IMG/VR virus record: IMGVR_UViG_3300025168_000285
Span: 1 to 35,256 of that record
Direction: 5' to 3' (one strand)
Length of the DNA: 35,256 bases
DNA from: a virus
Positions 1 through 35,256 of the stretch are shown here, in pieces; within the stretch, counting starts at the first letter, position 1, and the number at the start of each line of letters is the position of its first letter. The notes under the pieces were generated by a model that worked only from the letters and a program-made list of their open reading frames with translations, did not search any database and was not told the DNA's origin. A program made the translations under genes and the position numbers.

Positions 1-139
1 ACCACCACCAACACGTCCTCATCTATTATGATATTACTTCTTTGTATTTTGTATTGTTGTGCTGTTTCTAATACGTGCTGTTGTAATTCGTGTATTCCAG
101 TTTTATTGTACTTAATAATTTTAATAACTACCCAACCAC
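1..139. repeat. Left copy of terminal overlap (genome closure)
   Basis: Positions 1-139 repeat 35117-35256 at the right end. The only difference I found is one C present at 35131 and missing after position 14. The repeat lies inside the large terminase gene and restores one continuous reading frame when the ends are joined. This is what an assembler produces for a circular or circularly permuted genome. It could also be a true short terminal redundancy, but a 139-bp repeat inside a gene fits assembly overlap better. Confidence 0.93.
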
Positions 140-1680: not shown

Positions 1681-1850
1681 TCGTCTGGTATATTTAACGC
1701 TTCTATTATAGCAAACTCTATTGTTTTACTTGGATTGTTAAACCCCGTAAGTTTATAGACCTTTGTTCTTAAATCTTTCCAACGTCTGTATGTTTCTTTT
1801 GTTACCTTAACTTTTATTTCGTAACTAAAATCATTGTCTGGGTTTGTCAT
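1668..1850 (-). CDS. Small RHH-like hypothetical protein (60 aa)
   Basis: A 60-residue protein whose ATG overlaps the methyltransferase stop by 4 nt, so it is probably translationally coupled to the modification operon. It has a short strand (SYEIKVKVTKET) followed by two predicted helices (YRRWKDLRTKVYKL, then SKTIEFAIIEALNI). That order resembles the ribbon-helix-helix fold of small DNA-binding proteins. This is a pattern judgement, not a family match. It may be a local repressor or an accessory protein of the modification enzymes. Confidence 0.6.
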   Translation of the reverse strand: MTNPDNDFSYEIKVKVTKETYRRWKDLRTKVYKLTGFNNPSKTIEFAIIEALNIPDECLR

Positions 1851-2434
1851 ATTATGTATGCTTGTAATTGTTCTAAATGTGAAATGCTATTGTCTAGTTG
1901 TAGTCTGTTTTTATAGAACTCGTTTGTACATCTGTATTCCCCTGAAAATATGTGTTTTGCTTTAACTGGTAACAATGCCTCTAACTGTTCTTTTGTACGA
2001 AAGTATTTAAACTCATTTTTACTGTTGTGATATTTAACGTGTAAGTCTTGGTTCGTAAACTGTATTACTAACACCTTTAAACAATTCATTTTGCTAAACA
2101 GTTCCATAACTTCATAATCGTTTAGATAGTGTAATACATACCTTAAAATGCCTAAGTCATAAAACCCCTCGTGTTCTAATATGTTTTGTAATACGTCTGG
2201 TTGTTTTTCTTTATCCTTGTCTATTGTTACTGCGTGTGGTATGTATTGTTTAATTAACCCGTTTCCACCACCATAATCTCCAACCGAACTTGGAACGTGT
2301 ATTTGGTCGAGTATTTGTCTAATACTGCGTCTGTAAAGATAATCACTTGTTTCATCTTCCCACATTCCAAAGTTAACCCCGTTGTCTACGTTAATAGTTT
2401 TTTTCTGCATACTTGCTAAATTTAACCCACTCAT
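1847..2434 (-). CDS. SAM-dependent methyltransferase next to dpdA
   Basis: A class I methyltransferase fold of up to 195 residues. Motif I is VGDYGGGNG (residues 51-59), an acidic residue pair follows the second strand (ID, 71-72), and a motif IV-like segment is FYDLGILRYVLHYL (92-105). There is no obvious DPPY/NPPY motif of adenine or N4-cytosine DNA methylases and no PCQ motif of C5 enzymes. The ATG at 2434 lies inside dpdA (44-nt overlap); a second ATG at 2410 (residue 9) would leave a 20-nt overlap. Coupling to dpdA suggests that it acts on the modified base or its precursor, for example methylating a carboxyl or amine. It may instead act on a host target. Confidence 0.8.
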   Translation of the reverse strand: MSGLNLASMQKKTINVDNGVNFGMWEDETSDYLYRRSIRQILDQIHVPSSVGDYGGGNGLIKQYIPHAVTIDKDKEKQPDVLQNILEHEGFYDLGILRYVLHYLNDYEVMELFSKMNCLKVLVIQFTNQDLHVKYHNSKNEFKYFRTKEQLEALLPVKAKHIFSGEYRCTNEFYKNRLQLDNSISHLEQLQAYII

Positions 2435-3131
2435 AAAAATTATGTTTTGCTACTTGGTTTGTTTTTACATTCTTCCCGTCTCGTTGGTGTTTGTTAAAAC
2501 GTTTTCCGTTCCATTCATAAACCATTCCAAAACGGTTACCACCAATCCAACTCGTGCTGTCCACACTGTCGAAAGGCATTTTATCTAACATTGTCATTTT
2601 AGTATATCCCAACCCGTGAACCTTAACCCCTTTGCTGTGTGCGTAATCAATTAGTTTTCTTAACTTCTCTGGGTTTTGTCTTGTCCATTTACTTGCGTAC
2701 ATACCACTAGCAGAAATTGCTATGTAATTGTACTCCTCACATATCTGTTTGTAATAATCTGTTCCTAAGAAATAATGGAACACCGGCATTGTTTGTTTAC
2801 CAGTTTCTTTTTCTATTCTTTGGTTTATTATGTCTGTGTCTACCTTTCCAATTAATTGGTAGATGTCTAATTCAAAAAACAATTTAACGTCCCAGTCGTT
2901 TATGAATTTAATATACTTAGAAACATATTCATTAAGGTCTGTTTTAGCACCACCGAAAAAACTAAATGCCCCACTGTCTAACATAAAGTTGTTGTACTTA
3001 TGTATAACTTCTGCCTCGTGTTTACTTATTGCCCAAAAGGTTTCCAATCTATTAAAGTCGTAAAAGTTATCACCACCTAATTTTTCAATCCATAACTTAT
3101 CCCAACCACTTCCCGCTAAATATATTTTCAC
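2391..3131 (-). CDS. dpdA: DpdA-type DNA guanine transglycosylase
   Basis: A homologue of tRNA-guanine transglycosylase that exchanges guanine in DNA for a 7-deazaguanine base. It has 246 residues, about two thirds the length of bacterial TGT, as is usual for phage DpdA. LDSGAF (51-56) corresponds to the DSGGF active-site loop of TGT, and PFDSVDSTSW (186-195) corresponds to the region with the nucleophilic aspartate. The TGT zinc site is absent. The start is GTG, overlapping the upstream TGA as GTGA. It follows queD, queE, folE and a ParB-fold gene in one overlapping operon, which is the main support for DNA rather than tRNA modification. The exact base inserted cannot be read from the sequence. 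Confidence 0.9.
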   Translation of the reverse strand: MKIYLAGSGWDKLWIEKLGGDNFYDFNRLETFWAISKHEAEVIHKYNNFMLDSGAFSFFGGAKTDLNEYVSKYIKFINDWDVKLFFELDIYQLIGKVDTDIINQRIEKETGKQTMPVFHYFLGTDYYKQICEEYNYIAISASGMYASKWTRQNPEKLRKLIDYAHSKGVKVHGLGYTKMTMLDKMPFDSVDSTSWIGGNRFGMVYEWNGKRFNKHQRDGKNVKTNQVAKHNFYEWVKFSKYAEKNY

Positions 3132-3682
3132 AGTCCCAAAAGTTTAAACACAATTTCTTCTTTAGTACCGTCAAGCTCTGCTAACTTGTCTAACACTAAC
3201 TGGTGTTCTTCGTCTGTGTATTCTAAAACAATTTTGTTTGTTTCTTCTTTTGGTTTGTAGTCGTCTACGTCTTCAAATAAATTATCTATGCTAACGTCTG
3301 TGTTTGTAAACTCGAACTCTTTAAAACCAATTTCTAATAATACTTCTTTATCAAAGTGTTCGGTTAACATATCTACATCAAATCTTCCACCCGACTTATT
3401 CATTCTAACGTTTAACTCTTTTTCTTTGTCTAATGTTAAGTCTAATTCTATACACGGAACAACACTCATATCTAACGTTGTACACGCTTTTAAACGTTGG
3501 TGTCCACTTATGATAATATCTTTTCGTTGTTTGTTTACGTTAACTAAAATTGGCTCTACCAGTCCGAAACGCTTTATGCTATCTTGTAGTTGTACCAACT
3601 CCTCCTCTGTTATAACTCTTGGGTTGTATTCAGCAGTTATTAAATCTGTTACTTTTCTTTCTTTAACTTTTACCTTTTTCAT
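3128..3682 (-). CDS. ParB/sulfiredoxin-fold protein, possible DpdB-like partner
   Basis: A 184-residue protein with an N-terminal ParB-type domain: a strand and loop with EYNPR (18-22), a helix LVQLQDSIKRFGLVEPILVN, and the nucleotide-binding motif ISGHQRLKA (58-66). The C-terminal half (after about residue 120) is acidic and unlike chromosomal ParB; I see no HTH for parS binding. It overlaps folE and dpdA by 4 nt on each side. In the bacterial dpd clusters a ParB-like protein, DpdB, is needed with DpdA for base insertion, so a similar role is the best guess. A nuclease or a segregation factor are alternatives. Confidence 0.78.
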   Translation of the reverse strand: MKKVKVKERKVTDLITAEYNPRVITEEELVQLQDSIKRFGLVEPILVNVNKQRKDIIISGHQRLKACTTLDMSVVPCIELDLTLDKEKELNVRMNKSGGRFDVDMLTEHFDKEVLLEIGFKEFEFTNTDVSIDNLFEDVDDYKPKEETNKIVLEYTDEEHQLVLDKLAELDGTKEEIVFKLLGL

Positions 3683-4539
3683 TTTATTAAGTTTAAAAAT
3701 TCTTGTCGTGCGTTTAAATCTGTTTTAAATACACCAGTCATTTTACTGGTTGTTGTAAACGTGTCGTGTTTCTTTACACCCCTCATTTCCATACATAAGT
3801 GCTGTGCCTTTAATACAACAGCAACCCCCAACGGTTTTAATTCCTTTTCTAAGTATTCTGCTACTTGCTGTGTTATTCTTTCTTGGTTTTGAAATTTTCT
3901 ACTAAATGTTTCTAGTGTTCTTGCTAACTTACTTAACCCCACAATTTTCTTATTTGGTATGTAAGCAATATGTCCCTTTCCAAAAAATGGTGCTATGTGG
4001 TGTTCACAAAGTGAGTGAAACGGTATATCTTGTTGAATAATCATTTCATCATAGCCCTCGCTTTTAAATGTTGTAAAGTTAAAATGTGGAGGGGTTAAAA
4101 ATTCTTTAAGAAACTTAACATAACGTTTTGGTGTTTCTTGTAACCCCTCACGGTTTACATCTTGTCCAAAGTATTCTAACAACCTTACCACGTTTTCCTC
4201 TACTTCTTTTTCACCAGTTTCTTCCCACGGAAATTGTATCCACGTATTCTTAAATTCTTTTCGTTTGTCAAATAGAAATACGAACTCTTTTTTTGGGTAC
4301 TTCTTTTTCCATTTCTTGTATGTTGTTCCACTGTCGTAAAGGTCATCAATAATAACATTTGCTAAGTCGGGATGGTCTACTGCTCTGCCCGTCATACCCG
4401 CTACAACTTGTCCACCTCTTGGAATACCATAAAATCTATCATCTGGTTTGTTAAACTTTTTAGTTTTCTCGTACATTGCTTTGTAAATTTCTTGCCAACT
4501 TAATTGGTGTACTTTTACTTCTGTTCTTGTTTCACTCAT
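3679..4539 (-). CDS. folE: Phosphoribosyltransferase-GTP cyclohydrolase I fusion
   Basis: A two-domain protein of 286 residues. Residues about 10-106 are a small type I phosphoribosyltransferase with GIPRGG (38-43) and the PRPP loop VIIDDLYDSGTT (62-73). Residues about 112-275 are GTP cyclohydrolase I, with the zinc ligands C178 and H181 in SLCEHH and C249 in QHLCMEMRG. FolE converts GTP to dihydroneopterin triphosphate, the first step towards 7-deazaguanines. The PRTase half could join guanine released by DpdA to PRPP to make GMP, feeding the GTP pool; that link is my inference. It lies between queE and the ParB-fold gene in a coupled operon. Confidence 0.92.
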   Translation of the reverse strand: MSETRTEVKVHQLSWQEIYKAMYEKTKKFNKPDDRFYGIPRGGQVVAGMTGRAVDHPDLANVIIDDLYDSGTTYKKWKKKYPKKEFVFLFDKRKEFKNTWIQFPWEETGEKEVEENVVRLLEYFGQDVNREGLQETPKRYVKFLKEFLTPPHFNFTTFKSEGYDEMIIQQDIPFHSLCEHHIAPFFGKGHIAYIPNKKIVGLSKLARTLETFSRKFQNQERITQQVAEYLEKELKPLGVAVVLKAQHLCMEMRGVKKHDTFTTTSKMTGVFKTDLNARQEFLNLIK

Positions 4540-4548
4540 AATGTTTTT

Positions 4549-5265
4549 TTAAACTCCAGTTACTTTGTTCCAAATATCTACTTGTAATCTACTTCCAAAG
4601 TAATAATTATTTTCCTTACACATTTCTGCAACCATTGGTGCTAAATCGTTTAACTGTTCTCTACAATCTCCCGCCGGCATTAACACCACCTTTTCTTCTT
4701 TTAAATCTAACAAATCTATTAAGTCTTGTATCTCTGCTAGGTCTTCTTCTTCACACACCACAAATTTAAAAATAGATGAACGGTAGTTATTTATCTGTCT
4801 TAACACATCTGCTTTAATTCTTCTTTCTTCTTTCATACCACTATTACACAACTTTGGCGAACAGTTAATTAAGTCAAACTCCTTTAGTAATTCATTTGTA
4901 AATTCTATTGTTCCGTTGGTTTCTATTTCTAAAAATGGTACGTATTCATATTTCCTATAATACACATCTACAAATTCTTGTATTGCCGCTTGTTGTAACA
5001 TTGGTTCTCCACCCGTAAAAACTAGGTGTGCCCCTTTTGTTAGGTACTTATGAAACCGTTGAAACACATCTTTGACTAAATCTCTAACCAACATTTTTTC
5101 ACCCTTTGTCCAAACTGGTATTGTATCACACACCCAGTCTTTGCTTTTACATAATAAGTTACACGCTTGTAATCTTATAAAGACACTTGGAACACCCATT
5201 GTTATTCCCTCGCCTTGTATAGAATAAAACATTTCGCTTACTCTAATTTCCTCTTTCTTTTTCAT
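4549..5265 (-). CDS. queE: 7-carboxy-7-deazaguanine synthase (radical SAM)
   Basis: QueE converts 6-carboxytetrahydropterin to 7-carboxy-7-deazaguanine. The 238-residue protein has FYSIQGEG (13-20), the radical-SAM cysteines C35, C39 and C46, the TGGEP motif (84-88), EIETNG (113-118) and CSPKLC (135-140), all typical of the family. The cysteine spacing is CX3CX6C rather than CX3CX2C; the segment ends CDTIPVW, as in a QueE subgroup with an insertion in the cluster loop. The start overlaps the end of queD by 23 nt. The purine-rich leader lacks a clear Shine-Dalgarno sequence. Confidence 0.94.
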   Translation of the reverse strand: MKKKEEIRVSEMFYSIQGEGITMGVPSVFIRLQACNLLCKSKDWVCDTIPVWTKGEKMLVRDLVKDVFQRFHKYLTKGAHLVFTGGEPMLQQAAIQEFVDVYYRKYEYVPFLEIETNGTIEFTNELLKEFDLINCSPKLCNSGMKEERRIKADVLRQINNYRSSIFKFVVCEEEDLAEIQDLIDLLDLKEEKVVLMPAGDCREQLNDLAPMVAEMCKENNYYFGSRLQVDIWNKVTGV

Positions 5266-5656
5266 TGTATATTACTTTTGATGTTTTGGTTTCTGCTAAA
5301 CTAATTTCTATTATTGGTAGTTCTCTTTTAATTTGTTGGAATATCCATATTGCCATATTCTCTGCACTGGTTTGAAAGGGCAATTCTATAAACGGTTCGT
5401 TGTCTAATTTTAATAAACTACATAACTCATCTTTTTCCCACAGCAAAAAGTAATGGTCGTATTGTTTTATTACTGGTTCTACAACCTTATCAATGTCACT
5501 GAATAACATTGTTACACCATTTTCGTTTATGTTATCAAAAGCAAAGGTACACACAACGTCGTACGTGTGTCCGTGTAATCTACCACACTTTTCTCCCGCT
5601 GATTTATTTCTGTGTCCAGCGTAGAAATGGTATTTTTTTTCTATGTATAAACCCAT
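5243..5656 (-). CDS. queD: 6-carboxytetrahydropterin synthase
   Basis: QueD makes 6-carboxytetrahydropterin from dihydroneopterin triphosphate. The 137-residue protein has the three zinc histidines H15 (FYAGHRN), H28 and H30 (CGRLHGH), the catalytic cysteine C24, the D67-H68 pair in YDHYFLLW, TSAEN (96-100), and the substrate glutamate E122 in AETKTS. Length and motifs are those of the small QueD/PTPS-III family. It is the first gene of the pathway set in the transcribed order and overlaps queE by 23 nt. Confidence 0.95.
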   Translation of the reverse strand: MGLYIEKKYHFYAGHRNKSAGEKCGRLHGHTYDVVCTFAFDNINENGVTMLFSDIDKVVEPVIKQYDHYFLLWEKDELCSLLKLDNEPFIELPFQTSAENMAIWIFQQIKRELPIIEISLAETKTSKVIYNEKERGN

Positions 5657-7020: not shown

Positions 7021-7322
7021 ACCCTTTCATTTTCTTCTTCCCACACACTGCTACAATGGTCGTTACAACGGTAGCACATTTTCTGGTCAGTGTCCATCTT
7101 TGCCTCACAACAACTACTTACACCACTCCATTCGTCTTCACAGTTACAATCGTCGTTCTCACCACACATTACACAATCCTGGTGTTCTTCACAGTAATCG
7201 CTATTCATTTCTATTTCTTTATCACATAACTTACAACTAGGGTTTGTTCCATTCCATTCTGTTGGGTCGTTACCGTTACTGTTATGTGTTGCCGAAACCC
7301 AGTCTTTAAAATTTAATCCCAT
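7014..7322 (-). CDS. Cysteine-rich zinc-binding protein (102 aa)
   Basis: A 102-residue acidic protein with at least five cysteine pairs: CKLC (about 30-33), C..H in DYCEEHQDC, CVMC, CNC, CC (SSCCEAK), CYRC and a final C. At least two zinc knuckles or ribbons can be built from these. It has very few basic residues, so RNA or protein binding is more likely than DNA binding. It overlaps the GGCT-like gene by 17 nt. Function unknown; inhibition of a host factor is one possibility. Confidence 0.7.
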   Translation of the reverse strand: MGLNFKDWVSATHNSNGNDPTEWNGTNPSCKLCDKEIEMNSDYCEEHQDCVMCGENDDCNCEDEWSGVSSCCEAKMDTDQKMCYRCNDHCSSVWEEENERVC

Positions 7323-7689
7323 AATTATTTTCTTTGTATTCTCCTTTTGTTAATATAAAATTTTCTCTCATTGGGTGTTTGTAAAAGTAACACCACGCTC
7401 TAACCTTTTGTTTATCTTCTAACGTTACACTTATCATTTGTCTTTCGTACAAATCGGGGTGTCCCTCTAACATATCTAAATGTAACATTGTTTTGTAACT
7501 AACTTTGTAAACTTCTCCTTTTACTTGGTGTGTTGCTTTTTGTGTTAGGTAGGGTAAACCGTGTTCGTACAAAGTAAATAAATTGTTTGTTGTTGCTCTA
7601 CCAATAATTTGGCTATTTGCTAGAAACCCACTGTTAGAATATCCAAACTTTAAAGTTCCATAAACAAATACATATTCTTTATTCTCCAT
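7306..7689 (-). CDS. Gamma-glutamylcyclotransferase-like (AIG2/GGCT) protein
   Basis: A 127-residue protein of the GGCT fold: the substrate loop VYGTLKFG (9-16) at the N-terminus, a central catalytic glutamate in MLEGHPDLYER (E75), and a C-terminal W-C-Y-F-Y strand. These enzymes release 5-oxoproline from gamma-glutamyl amines or trim gamma-glutamyl adducts. Phage and bacterial genomes often combine them with amidoligases and class II glutamine amidotransferases, both present here at 13350 and 12041. The three may form one peptide- or metabolite-modifying pathway, or GGCT may act alone. Confidence 0.85.
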   Translation of the reverse strand: MENKEYVFVYGTLKFGYSNSGFLANSQIIGRATTNNLFTLYEHGLPYLTQKATHQVKGEVYKVSYKTMLHLDMLEGHPDLYERQMISVTLEDKQKVRAWCYFYKHPMRENFILTKGEYKENNYGIKF

Positions 7690-12040: not shown

Positions 12041-12964
12041 TTAGTTAATATCATTTCCAAATAACTTTAATTGGTGTTTATTAAACTCCTCGTCTGTCAT
12101 TTCCATTAAACGTTTTGTTTCCTTAACTTCTGTTAACTCATAGTCTGTAATGTCTATTTCGTTAATGTCGTCCCAACCACACGTTTCTATGTTGTTGTCA
12201 AAGTCGTCTGTTATACCACTGTAAACTCCTTTGCTACTCATTGGTAACGTTCTACTGTAATTTCCGTATTTGTTTTTCTGTGGTGTACTGTATTCCCACC
12301 AGTTACGGTTGTCTGTATTGTAACTTGCTATCGGGTCGTGTTCTATGTCTACTTTTTCAATAACAGTGTTACCACTCCACACGTATAATCTACCCTCTTT
12401 AAGTTGGTAAATGTTGTTTAATTTACAGTTAACCAATACATCTTTTAAACTACTAAAATAAACATCACCGTTTTTATCTCTACCACACCATAACGGGTTC
12501 GTTTTTCTGTAAGTGTAGTAATACTCACCTATTGTAAACAACGTTGCTAGTGCCCCACTAAATTTCCCCAGTGTTTTAAAATCGTGTTTTGTTTTGTCTA
12601 ATACTTTAAAAATCATTTGGCTGTCTACTTCTGTTTCACCACAACTAAATTCTTCTCCTACATCTAAGTAATTATACACAACCCCGTTGTGTGCCCCAAC
12701 TACATCACCGTATTTAAACGGGTGTTGGTTGGGTAACGTTCTTGCCCCGTGTGTACTAAAACGGGTGTGTCCAATAAACTGGTTAGTTTTTAACTGTCTT
12801 ACTCTTTGGTGTAGTCCTAAACTTTTTCCTAACACCTTTTCAAATTTATCACCATCATAATATCCCGTACTGTGTCCACCACGTTTATCGTTTGCTATCA
12901 ACAACTGGTTTATTATCGTTGGGTTTGCTTGTCGGTTTCCCGTAAATCCTATTAATCCACACAT
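12041..12964 (-). CDS. Class II glutamine amidotransferase (Ntn hydrolase)
   Basis: A 307-residue protein with the class II glutaminase hallmarks: catalytic Cys2 (MCGLIGF), HTRFSTHG (66-73) and AHNGVVYNY (91-99). These are seen in the N-terminal domains of GlmS, PurF and asparagine synthase, but the synthase or isomerase domain is absent. Residues 110-200 complete the Ntn fold (TEVDSQMIF; ALATLFT). The C-terminal 90 residues are acidic and unlike known relatives. It should release ammonia from glutamine for a partner ligase; the amidoligase two genes upstream is the obvious candidate. Confidence 0.9.
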   Translation of the reverse strand: MCGLIGFTGNRQANPTIINQLLIANDKRGGHSTGYYDGDKFEKVLGKSLGLHQRVRQLKTNQFIGHTRFSTHGARTLPNQHPFKYGDVVGAHNGVVYNYLDVGEEFSCGETEVDSQMIFKVLDKTKHDFKTLGKFSGALATLFTIGEYYYTYRKTNPLWCGRDKNGDVYFSSLKDVLVNCKLNNIYQLKEGRLYVWSGNTVIEKVDIEHDPIASYNTDNRNWWEYSTPQKNKYGNYSRTLPMSSKGVYSGITDDFDNNIETCGWDDINEIDITDYELTEVKETKRLMEMTDEEFNKHQLKLFGNDIN

Positions 12965-13349: not shown

Positions 13350-14396
13350 TTATGAAACCGTAACTTCTACCTGTCCTATTGTACTAAACAATAACGTTCC
13401 TAGTTGTCTTGTTGTCTGGTTTGTATCCGTAACACCTAATAAGTGTAAAAGTGTCTTACGTCCACTCTTAACAGTGTTTCCGTCCTCTTTTACTTCTATA
13501 CCACCGTTGCTTAATTTGTTTACTGTAAACACTGTTGCTGTTAACTCACATACTGCCTCCCATCTCTTAACAACACTAATTGTTTTAACACTTCCAAAGT
13601 TAGTAAACCCAAAATGGTTTGCTCTACCTAACATAAAGTCTAATACAACTTTACTAGTGTGTCCAAAACATTGTTTAAATGCTACCGTTTGCTTAGTTCT
13701 AACAGTTGGTGTAATAACTGTTTCTAACTGGTTACACATTTCAACAGTTGTAATTAACCAGTGTGCCCAGTTTAAAATTTTCTCACTATCTAAACTTCCA
13801 CCGTGTTGTCTAAACTCTACCGTTCTTTGTCTGCTGTATGCTTGTAAATTTACTGTTTGGTATCTTGTACCGTTAAATGCACTAATAACTTCGCTAACAC
13901 TATTACAACCGTTTAACCTACTGTTAATCTGTGTTAAGTCACCGTAATTATTTGCTAATGTATTTGTCCATCTACTGTTTCTTCTGCTTGGTGCTAAAAT
14001 ACTTTGTATTATGTGTTGGTTTTTTGCGTAAAATAAAACAACGTTTTTAATTCCTTGTGTTGTTATATCACTTGCCCCAACGTGTACGTGTATTCCACAA
14101 TCTCTGTTTACTGTAACACCCTCTATATTTGCTAAACAATCTATAATACATTTTGCGTTTTCCATTCCTTTCTTACCACTTAGTATTGGAGAAACCAATT
14201 CTAATCCACACGTGCTGTCAGTTACAATTTTCCAATGGTTTTGTGTTGTGTGGTTGTACCCCTCACCAATACAATCTAATTTTCTAAACTTCTTGTTAAT
14301 GTATTGTGCTAATACGTCTTTACTCATAGAACTTCTGTTTACAAATTCTATCTCTAATCCAAATGTTCTGTCTGTTGTTAATTTTGCTAGTTTCAT
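13350..14396 (-). CDS. Amidoligase (COOH-NH2 ligase family)
   Basis: A 348-residue protein of the putative amidoligase family (glutamine synthetase-like/COOH-NH2 ligase fold). Motifs in order: FGLEIEF (12-18), W55, LELVSPILSG (65-74), CGIHVHVG (100-107), LFYAKNQ (121-127), SRR (137-139) and TVEFRQHGGSLD (192-203). These E, H and R residues bind Mg-ATP in the family. Such enzymes form amide bonds between a carboxyl and an amine, and occur with class II amidotransferases and GGCT proteins as here. The substrate is unknown: a peptide, a cell-wall group or a carboxylated base. It is the first gene after the control region. Confidence 0.88.
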   Translation of the reverse strand: MKLAKLTTDRTFGLEIEFVNRSSMSKDVLAQYINKKFRKLDCIGEGYNHTTQNHWKIVTDSTCGLELVSPILSGKKGMENAKCIIDCLANIEGVTVNRDCGIHVHVGASDITTQGIKNVVLFYAKNQHIIQSILAPSRRNSRWTNTLANNYGDLTQINSRLNGCNSVSEVISAFNGTRYQTVNLQAYSRQRTVEFRQHGGSLDSEKILNWAHWLITTVEMCNQLETVITPTVRTKQTVAFKQCFGHTSKVVLDFMLGRANHFGFTNFGSVKTISVVKRWEAVCELTATVFTVNKLSNGGIEVKEDGNTVKSGRKTLLHLLGVTDTNQTTRQLGTLLFSTIGQVEVTVS

Positions 14397-34780: not shown

Positions 34781-35256
34781 TTAACCGAAATAAGTAATTT
34801 TGGTTTTGTTTAATTCAAAATACATACGCATCATTAACGCATCACTTATGTCTGGTGAACGTCCAATGTTTTCTTTAATTTTATCCTTACCAATTATTCT
34901 TAATTTATTGTCTTTGTCTACGTCTTTCATTTGTACCACTTCTAACTCTTGTATTATTTCTTGTTTAAACTGGTTGTCCTTAATATACAATCCACCGTTG
35001 TTTACTAAATCTGCTAATTTGTAATAACACTGTGATTTTAAGTTTTGATAGTTCTCTTTGCCCAATGCCTTAGAATTATTAATAAATCCCTTAGAACCTC
35101 TTAAAACGTCCTTTAAACCACCACCAACACCGTCCTCATCTATTATGATATTACTTCTTTGTATTTTGTATTGTTGTGCTGTTTCTAATACGTGCTGTTG
35201 TAATTCGTGTATTCCAGTTTTATTGTACTTAATAATTTTAATAACTACCCAACCAC
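34781..35256 (-). CDS. terL: Terminase large subunit, C-terminal nuclease part
   Basis: The reading frame enters from the right edge and ends at 34781. It is the continuation of the terminase frame that begins at 974 on the left. It encodes the RNase H-like nuclease end: IIIDEDGVGGG (second acidic group), KLADLVNNGGLYIKDNQF and SPDISDALMMRMYFEL (third acidic group), the typical TerL C-terminus. In this copy the base missing at the left end is present, so the frame is intact. Confidence 0.93.
   Translation of the reverse strand, partial: GWVVIKIIKYNKTGIHELQQHVLETAQQYKIQRSNIIIDEDGVGGGLKDVLRGSKGFINNSKALGKENYQNLKSQCYYKLADLVNNGGLYIKDNQFKQEIIQELEVVQMKDVDKDNKLRIIGKDKIKENIGRSPDISDALMMRMYFELNKTKITYFG
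35117..35256. repeat. Right copy of terminal overlap
   Basis: A 140-bp repeat of positions 1-139 with one extra C at 35131. The reading frame of terL is intact in this copy, so it is the more trustworthy version of the junction. Confidence 0.93.

Follow-up and report, generated by a model that had tools for sequence, protein, structure and literature searches.

Which base is placed in the DNA of a phage whose 7-deazaguanine operon lacks QueC? The question is raised by the IMG/VR virus record IMGVR_UViG_3300025168_000285, whose positions 1-35,256 were analyzed as a whole (this 35,256-nucleotide stretch is referred to as the window). On its minus strand, the genes queD, queE, folE, a ParB-like gene, dpdA and a methyltransferase (MTase)-like gene follow each other in order of transcription. 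Modification of phage DNA by 7-deazaguanines is an already known type of pathway, and phages without QueC, for example Bipper, have been noted (PMC6884629). Our present results describe a recurrent exchange of QueC for the MTase-like protein. We tentatively conclude that QueC is replaced by an enzyme family dependent on S-adenosylmethionine (SAM), known to date from uncultured phages alone, and that its product is an undescribed DNA base, the likeliest candidate being 7-carboxy-7-deazaguanine (CDG) methyl ester. The position after dpdA would then be an exchangeable tailoring slot, in which QueC, zinc-less QueC, a mini PP-loop protein, a methyltransferase or a glycosyltransferase diversifies the base.

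The four pathway genes queD, queE, folE and dpdA give strong family matches (Table 1) and form a single compact operon. The genes queD and queE overlap by 23 bases, queE and folE are 9 bases apart, the sequence ATGA is common to folE and parB and GTGA to parB and dpdA, and the ATG of the MTase gene lies 20 bases inside the 3' end of dpdA. Clustering of FolE, QueD and QueE with DpdA is the arrangement of 7-deazaguanine DNA modification operons of phages. A preliminary description of this DNA had proposed such an operon, producing CDG in the absence of QueC, and this proposal is supported. It missed three features of the region 1847-5656, namely the MTase-like gene, the ParB-like gene and a phosphoribosyltransferase-like domain fused to FolE.

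The absence of QueC agrees with the same description: PF06508 has no match in the window record, the same search being positive in 12 of 14 control genomes, and neither QueC nor Gat-QueC of the preQ0-type pathway is present in the closed genome. The TerL gene of the window runs off the left end, which at first pointed to a fragment. However, contig L001 leads from the left end of the window to its right end through an overlap of about 140 bases (99.99 and 100% identity); the genome is closed and essentially complete, with a length of about 35.1 kb. Because L001 closes the genome, the missing QueC is real, and a fragment artefact is ruled out as its cause. Within positions 1-20, one base present in L001 and in the right-end repeat of the window itself is missing, which truncates TerL at the contig end; an error of sequencing or assembly is the probable cause. 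No near-identical phage was found among sequenced phages, and Bacteroidota-type promoters, considered as a clue to the host, showed no excess over chance.

What stands in place of QueC was followed in about 95 related loci, obtained from scans anchored on the FolE fusion, DpdA or the MTase; 80 of approximately 375 DpdA relatives were sampled, and neighbourhoods were analyzed by iterated hidden Markov model searches of all open frames of these loci. They share the layout ParB-DpdA-X-QueD-QueE-FolE, or a rotated order as in the window. Among 84 loci with this DpdA and queD/queE, X is solely a QueC-type protein (PF06508) in 70, solely the MTase in 12 and neither in 2; no locus has both. Taken alone, the scan anchored on DpdA, in which X plays no part, returned 67 QueC-type and 5 MTase loci with no overlap (Fisher 7e-8, a value to be taken with caution, as the loci are related to one another). 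PF06508 has no match in any of the 16 contigs having the MTase or neither gene (up to 37 kb), and the control contig L013 is matched. In most MTase loci the gene occupies the exact position of QueC after dpdA. A further MTase locus from a different phage (L103) fits the exclusion rule and has the gene order of the window, queD-queE-folE-parB-dpdA-MTase.

In the DpdA tree, well supported branches carry five or more changes of the MTase state. For the DpdA nearest to that of the window (L013, 75% identity), the slot is occupied by a mini PP-loop protein. Every locus returned by scans anchored on the MTase only has queD, queE and folE. In one of the loci (L095) the MTase follows folE at the end of the operon; another (L089) comes from a larger unrelated phage that encodes ribonucleotide reductase and dUTPase and lacks this DpdA, and there the MTase gene forms a cluster with divergent queD, queE and folE and a queuosine-type transporter. 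Because loci found through the MTase all carry the three synthesis genes, L089 even without this DpdA, the link is well supported: the MTase gene tracks CDG synthesis itself.

This distribution bears directly on whether the final base could be plain dCDG, the MTase-like protein having another target or serving as a structural partner of DpdA. FolE, QueD, QueE and DpdA would in principle suffice for dCDG, and CDG has been raised for the QueC-less phage Bipper (PMC6884629). An MTase with another target, however, need not replace QueC repeatedly, never coexist with it, nor follow queD, queE and folE into L089, and we regard plain dCDG as rather unlikely. The preliminary description expected CDG, or else a derivative produced by locally encoded enzymes. 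The direction towards a derivative was right, but the local enzyme escaped it, this being the MTase that replaces QueC both here and in at least 12 related loci; with such a gene in the QueC slot, plain dCDG is no longer the leading expectation.

The MTase family itself was characterized by profiles and predicted structure. The protein of the window alone matches PF13489 weakly (0.003), but each of the five members in the first family alignment gives a match, down to 2.9e-6 for the best. The confidently predicted structure (predicted local distance difference test, pLDDT, 87.5; predicted template modelling score, pTM, 0.86) aligns with many methyltransferases at Z 12-13. In Foldseek, the carboxyl O-methyltransferase BioC ranks first (E 2.4e-5, 11% identity, without sequence-family match). 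Two elements are invariant in the family, the SAM motif DxGGxNG and a polar segment around NEFKYFR. The modelled Rossmann-like fold and the DxGxGxG-type loop are those of class I SAM methyltransferases, with putative SAM binding. No homologue of the MTase was found in 50,697 sequenced phages (E <= 0.1) or in GTDB representative genomes, no published description of the family was found in the literature, and neither the MTase nor the DpdA family gave a sequence-level match to solved relatives.

CDG is strongly suggested as the substrate of the MTase. In the mechanism we propose, FolE, QueD and QueE would convert GTP to CDG, and the ParB-coupled DpdA would install the deazaguanine base in phage DNA by exchange for guanine. 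QueC would lead from CDG via 7-amido-7-deazaguanine (ADG) to preQ0; here the SAM-dependent MTase would take its place and act on CDG, whether free or already inserted as dCDG. The likeliest product would be the methyl ester of the 7-carboxylate, 7-methoxycarbonyl-7-deazaguanine, in which the negative charge would be removed and the base capped, and the modified base would presumably shield phage DNA from restriction. Two points favour the methyl ester: QueC would otherwise consume this very carboxylate, and CmoM provides a precedent in tRNA for methylating a base carboxylate with SAM (PMC12783734). Computation establishes the gene identities, closure of the genome, the lack of QueC, its mutual exclusion with the MTase, the linkage and the folds; ester formation, insertion into DNA and protection may be expected by analogy with known families. 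We tentatively conclude that CDG is the product of the operon and is modified by the MTase, as such or as dCDG in DNA, the likeliest reaction being esterification of the carboxylate.

Several observations weigh against this reading. N-terminal protein methyltransferases are at the top by Z among the fold matches, and these also include TamK, a decarboxylase of the same fold. The methyl acceptor is not fixed by the fold, methyltransferases of many kinds matching equally well, and methylation of a ring nitrogen or the exocyclic amine is equally compatible with the genetics. Independent contrasts in the tree amount to only 5 pairs; opposite changes occur in 3-4 of them and parallel changes in none, which agrees with the exclusion but falls short of significance for want of numbers (sign test p 0.125). 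If the MTase methylated CDG or dCDG at another atom (the exocyclic amine N2, N1 or elsewhere), the product would be a methylated carboxy-deazaguanine and no ester. The same genetic evidence would account for it, but the free carboxylate is the one chemically obvious difference between CDG and the QueC product, and BioC, the best Foldseek match, esterifies a carboxylate; methylation elsewhere is thus unlikely in our estimate. A decarboxylase resembling DpdL would instead yield unsubstituted 7-deazaguanine (dDG). Methyltransferase-fold decarboxylases do exist, as the match to TamK illustrates, but the SAM-binding motif is invariant, and the lack of homologues among the sequenced phages makes it improbable that the protein is the DpdL defined from isolated phages; we consider decarboxylation quite unlikely.

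The transglycosylase provides another view of the pathway. The model of DpdA (pLDDT 86) matches tRNA-guanine transglycosylases (TGTs) and the CBASS (cyclic oligonucleotide-based antiphage signaling system) protein Cap10 with Z about 14 over 235 residues. The TGT fold is accompanied by the motifs DSGxF, ExD, the IGG loop (ISASG in the window) and SxDS, which places the protein in the DpdA/TGT superfamily. These catalytic motifs occur in the same order as in E. coli Tgt; the profile alignment to Tgt covers the DSGGF motif only, and correspondence of the other motifs rests on order and fold. The loop matching GGLAVGE of Tgt, which in established TGT structures touches the 7-substituent of the base, reads I[SG]ASG in the window clade, whereas most DpdAs linked to QueC or to salvage have IGG[IL]V. 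The altered loop is common to MTase-linked, mini-PP-loop-linked and some QueC-linked DpdAs; because it accompanies different slot enzymes, DpdA of the window clade may insert CDG, with the slot enzyme acting afterwards on DNA. Ser 140 was considered as a DpdA marker specific for the MTase (12 of 12 versus 6 of 70 DpdAs), but it is confounded by ancestry, occurs in some QueC-linked DpdAs and is a hint only. In nearly every locus encoding this small DpdA, a ParB-like gene is the direct neighbour of dpdA, and its product might target or load DpdA on DNA.

Both the loop and the exchange argue against the host as a source of QueC. Host QueC could turn CDG made by the phage into preQ0, giving dPreQ0 in the DNA of a phage that merely lost queC. 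Many bacteria encode QueC, as do 12 of the 14 control genomes, and related phages (L002, L003, L033, L057) rely on salvage, having only DpdA and a queuosine-precursor transporter. Loss alone, however, fails to explain the same enzyme in the slot each time, and window-clade DpdAs have a base-pocket loop unlike the TGT-like IGG[IL]V that prevails in DpdAs linked to QueC or to salvage. The preliminary description had allowed for preQ0 by this route; because the swap recurs across phages, it becomes less likely, and we hold it to be highly doubtful.

Other occupants of the slot were observed in the related loci. The commonest, seen in L016 and some 40 further loci, is a QueC (PF06508) of full length that has none of the four zinc-binding cysteines, with TDYNG...NNPATELRVKG in place of TCYNG...GCGxCPAC; this zinc-less group is apparently undescribed. 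About 10 loci have a mini PP-loop protein (SGGADS/SGGMDS, without zinc site), either alone (~145 amino acids) or behind an N-terminal hydrophobic domain. A GT-B glycosyltransferase is located between dpdA and queD on a 37-kb QueC-less contig (L011), where a glycosylated deazaguanine is a possible product. Seven loci (L002, L003, L033, L057, L070, L071 and L088) combine ParB-DpdA with a queuosine-precursor-type transporter without synthesis genes, an apparent salvage version.

Table 1. Positions of the features discussed, in the window unless a locus is named (aa, amino acids)
Feature	Positions	Strand	Evidence or remark
queD, 6-carboxytetrahydropterin synthase	5243-5656	-	PTPS PF01242 7e-26; phrog_2389; TIGR03367 2.7e-20; CxxxHGH motif kept
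queE, radical-SAM CDG synthase	4549-5265	-	phrog_2076 3e-56; TIGR03963 1e-22; Cys spacing Cx3Cx6C
folE, phosphoribosyltransferase-like domain (aa 1-107) and GTP cyclohydrolase I (aa 108-286)	3679-4539	-	GTP_cyclohydroI PF01227 1e-64; phrog_8995 7e-7, aa 62-107
phosphoribosyltransferase-like domain of FolE (aa 1-107)	4219-4539	-	motifs GVPRGG ... DDLxDSG[ST]T
ParB-like gene, coupled to dpdA	3128-3682	-	ParB_N PF02195 1e-9
dpdA, small DNA-guanine transglycosylase, 246 aa	2391-3131	-	phrog_887 'queuine tRNA-ribosyltransferase' 1e-43; GTG start overlaps parB stop
class I SAM-methyltransferase-like gene, 187 aa	1847-2410	-	PF13489 family matches, predicted fold; QueC slot of relatives
terminal overlap, left copy	1-139		direct repeat of 35117-35256, one indel; L001 alignment
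terminal overlap, right copy	35117-35256		L001 alignment
gamma-glutamyl cyclotransferase gene	7306-7689
class II glutamine amidotransferase gene	12041-12964
amidoligase gene	13350-14396
zinc-less QueC	L016:9087-9755		PF06508, full length
mini PP-loop protein	L013:6558-7334
mini PP-loop protein	L022:4585-5016
mini PP-loop protein	L030:9876-10634
GT-B glycosyltransferase	L011:5595-6617		between dpdA and queD

Further features of the window concern the supply of CDG and the surrounding genes. The FolE fusion recurs in about 40 relatives, and the fused domain could recycle guanine released by DpdA to GMP and then to GTP for FolE. Cysteine spacing of QueE is mostly non-canonical, being Cx5Cx6C in 49 loci, Cx3Cx18C in 16, Cx3Cx6C in the window and L013 and the canonical CxxxCxxC in only 6. 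The amidoligase and class II glutamine amidotransferase encoded at 12-14.4 kb were considered as a QueC substitute and rejected, since the amidoligase is present in none of 30 related records, some of them fragments, and there is no sign that it belongs to the module.

In comparison with known operons (Hutinet 2019, PMC6884629), the window likewise has FolE, QueD and QueE homologues and a TGT-fold DpdA in a single operon, but differs in the MTase-like protein replacing QueC/Gat-QueC, in the small ParB-coupled DpdA of 246 amino acids and in the fusion of FolE to the phosphoribosyltransferase-like domain. Mycobacterium phage Bipper shares the layout of a DNA-binding protein, DpdA, a gene of unknown function, QueD, QueE and FolE, with QueC not annotated (PMC6884629); its slot gene (141 amino acids), however, matches neither the MTase nor the QueC-type profiles built here. 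The systems of CmoM in tRNA and of CmoX and CmoY in phage DNA likewise involve a base carboxylate that undergoes further modification (SAM-dependent methylation by CmoM, amide ligation by CmoY), as proposed for the window, but theirs belongs to C5 substituents of pyrimidines and not to 7-deazaguanine (PMC12783734), and these systems are analogous to the window without sharing membership with it.

Phage-specific tailoring of 7-deazaguanines, CDG included, is a trait that the window would share with systems containing DpdL, DpdM and DpdN. Cui et al. in 2023 reportedly described dCDG and dDG together with these three tailoring enzymes, DpdL being a predicted decarboxylase, and DpdM is said to have a non-classical fold and to act on dPreQ1. 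The MTase of the window differs in having no homologue in isolated phages.

Phage 7-deazaguanine bases known so far are mostly made via QueC. The recurrent, mutually exclusive swap of QueC for the MTase predicts a further DNA base and names a candidate enzyme for it. It also offers a simple rule, by which the gene after dpdA predicts which 7-deazaguanine a phage makes, and bases that protect from restriction could extend the DNA modification toolkit.

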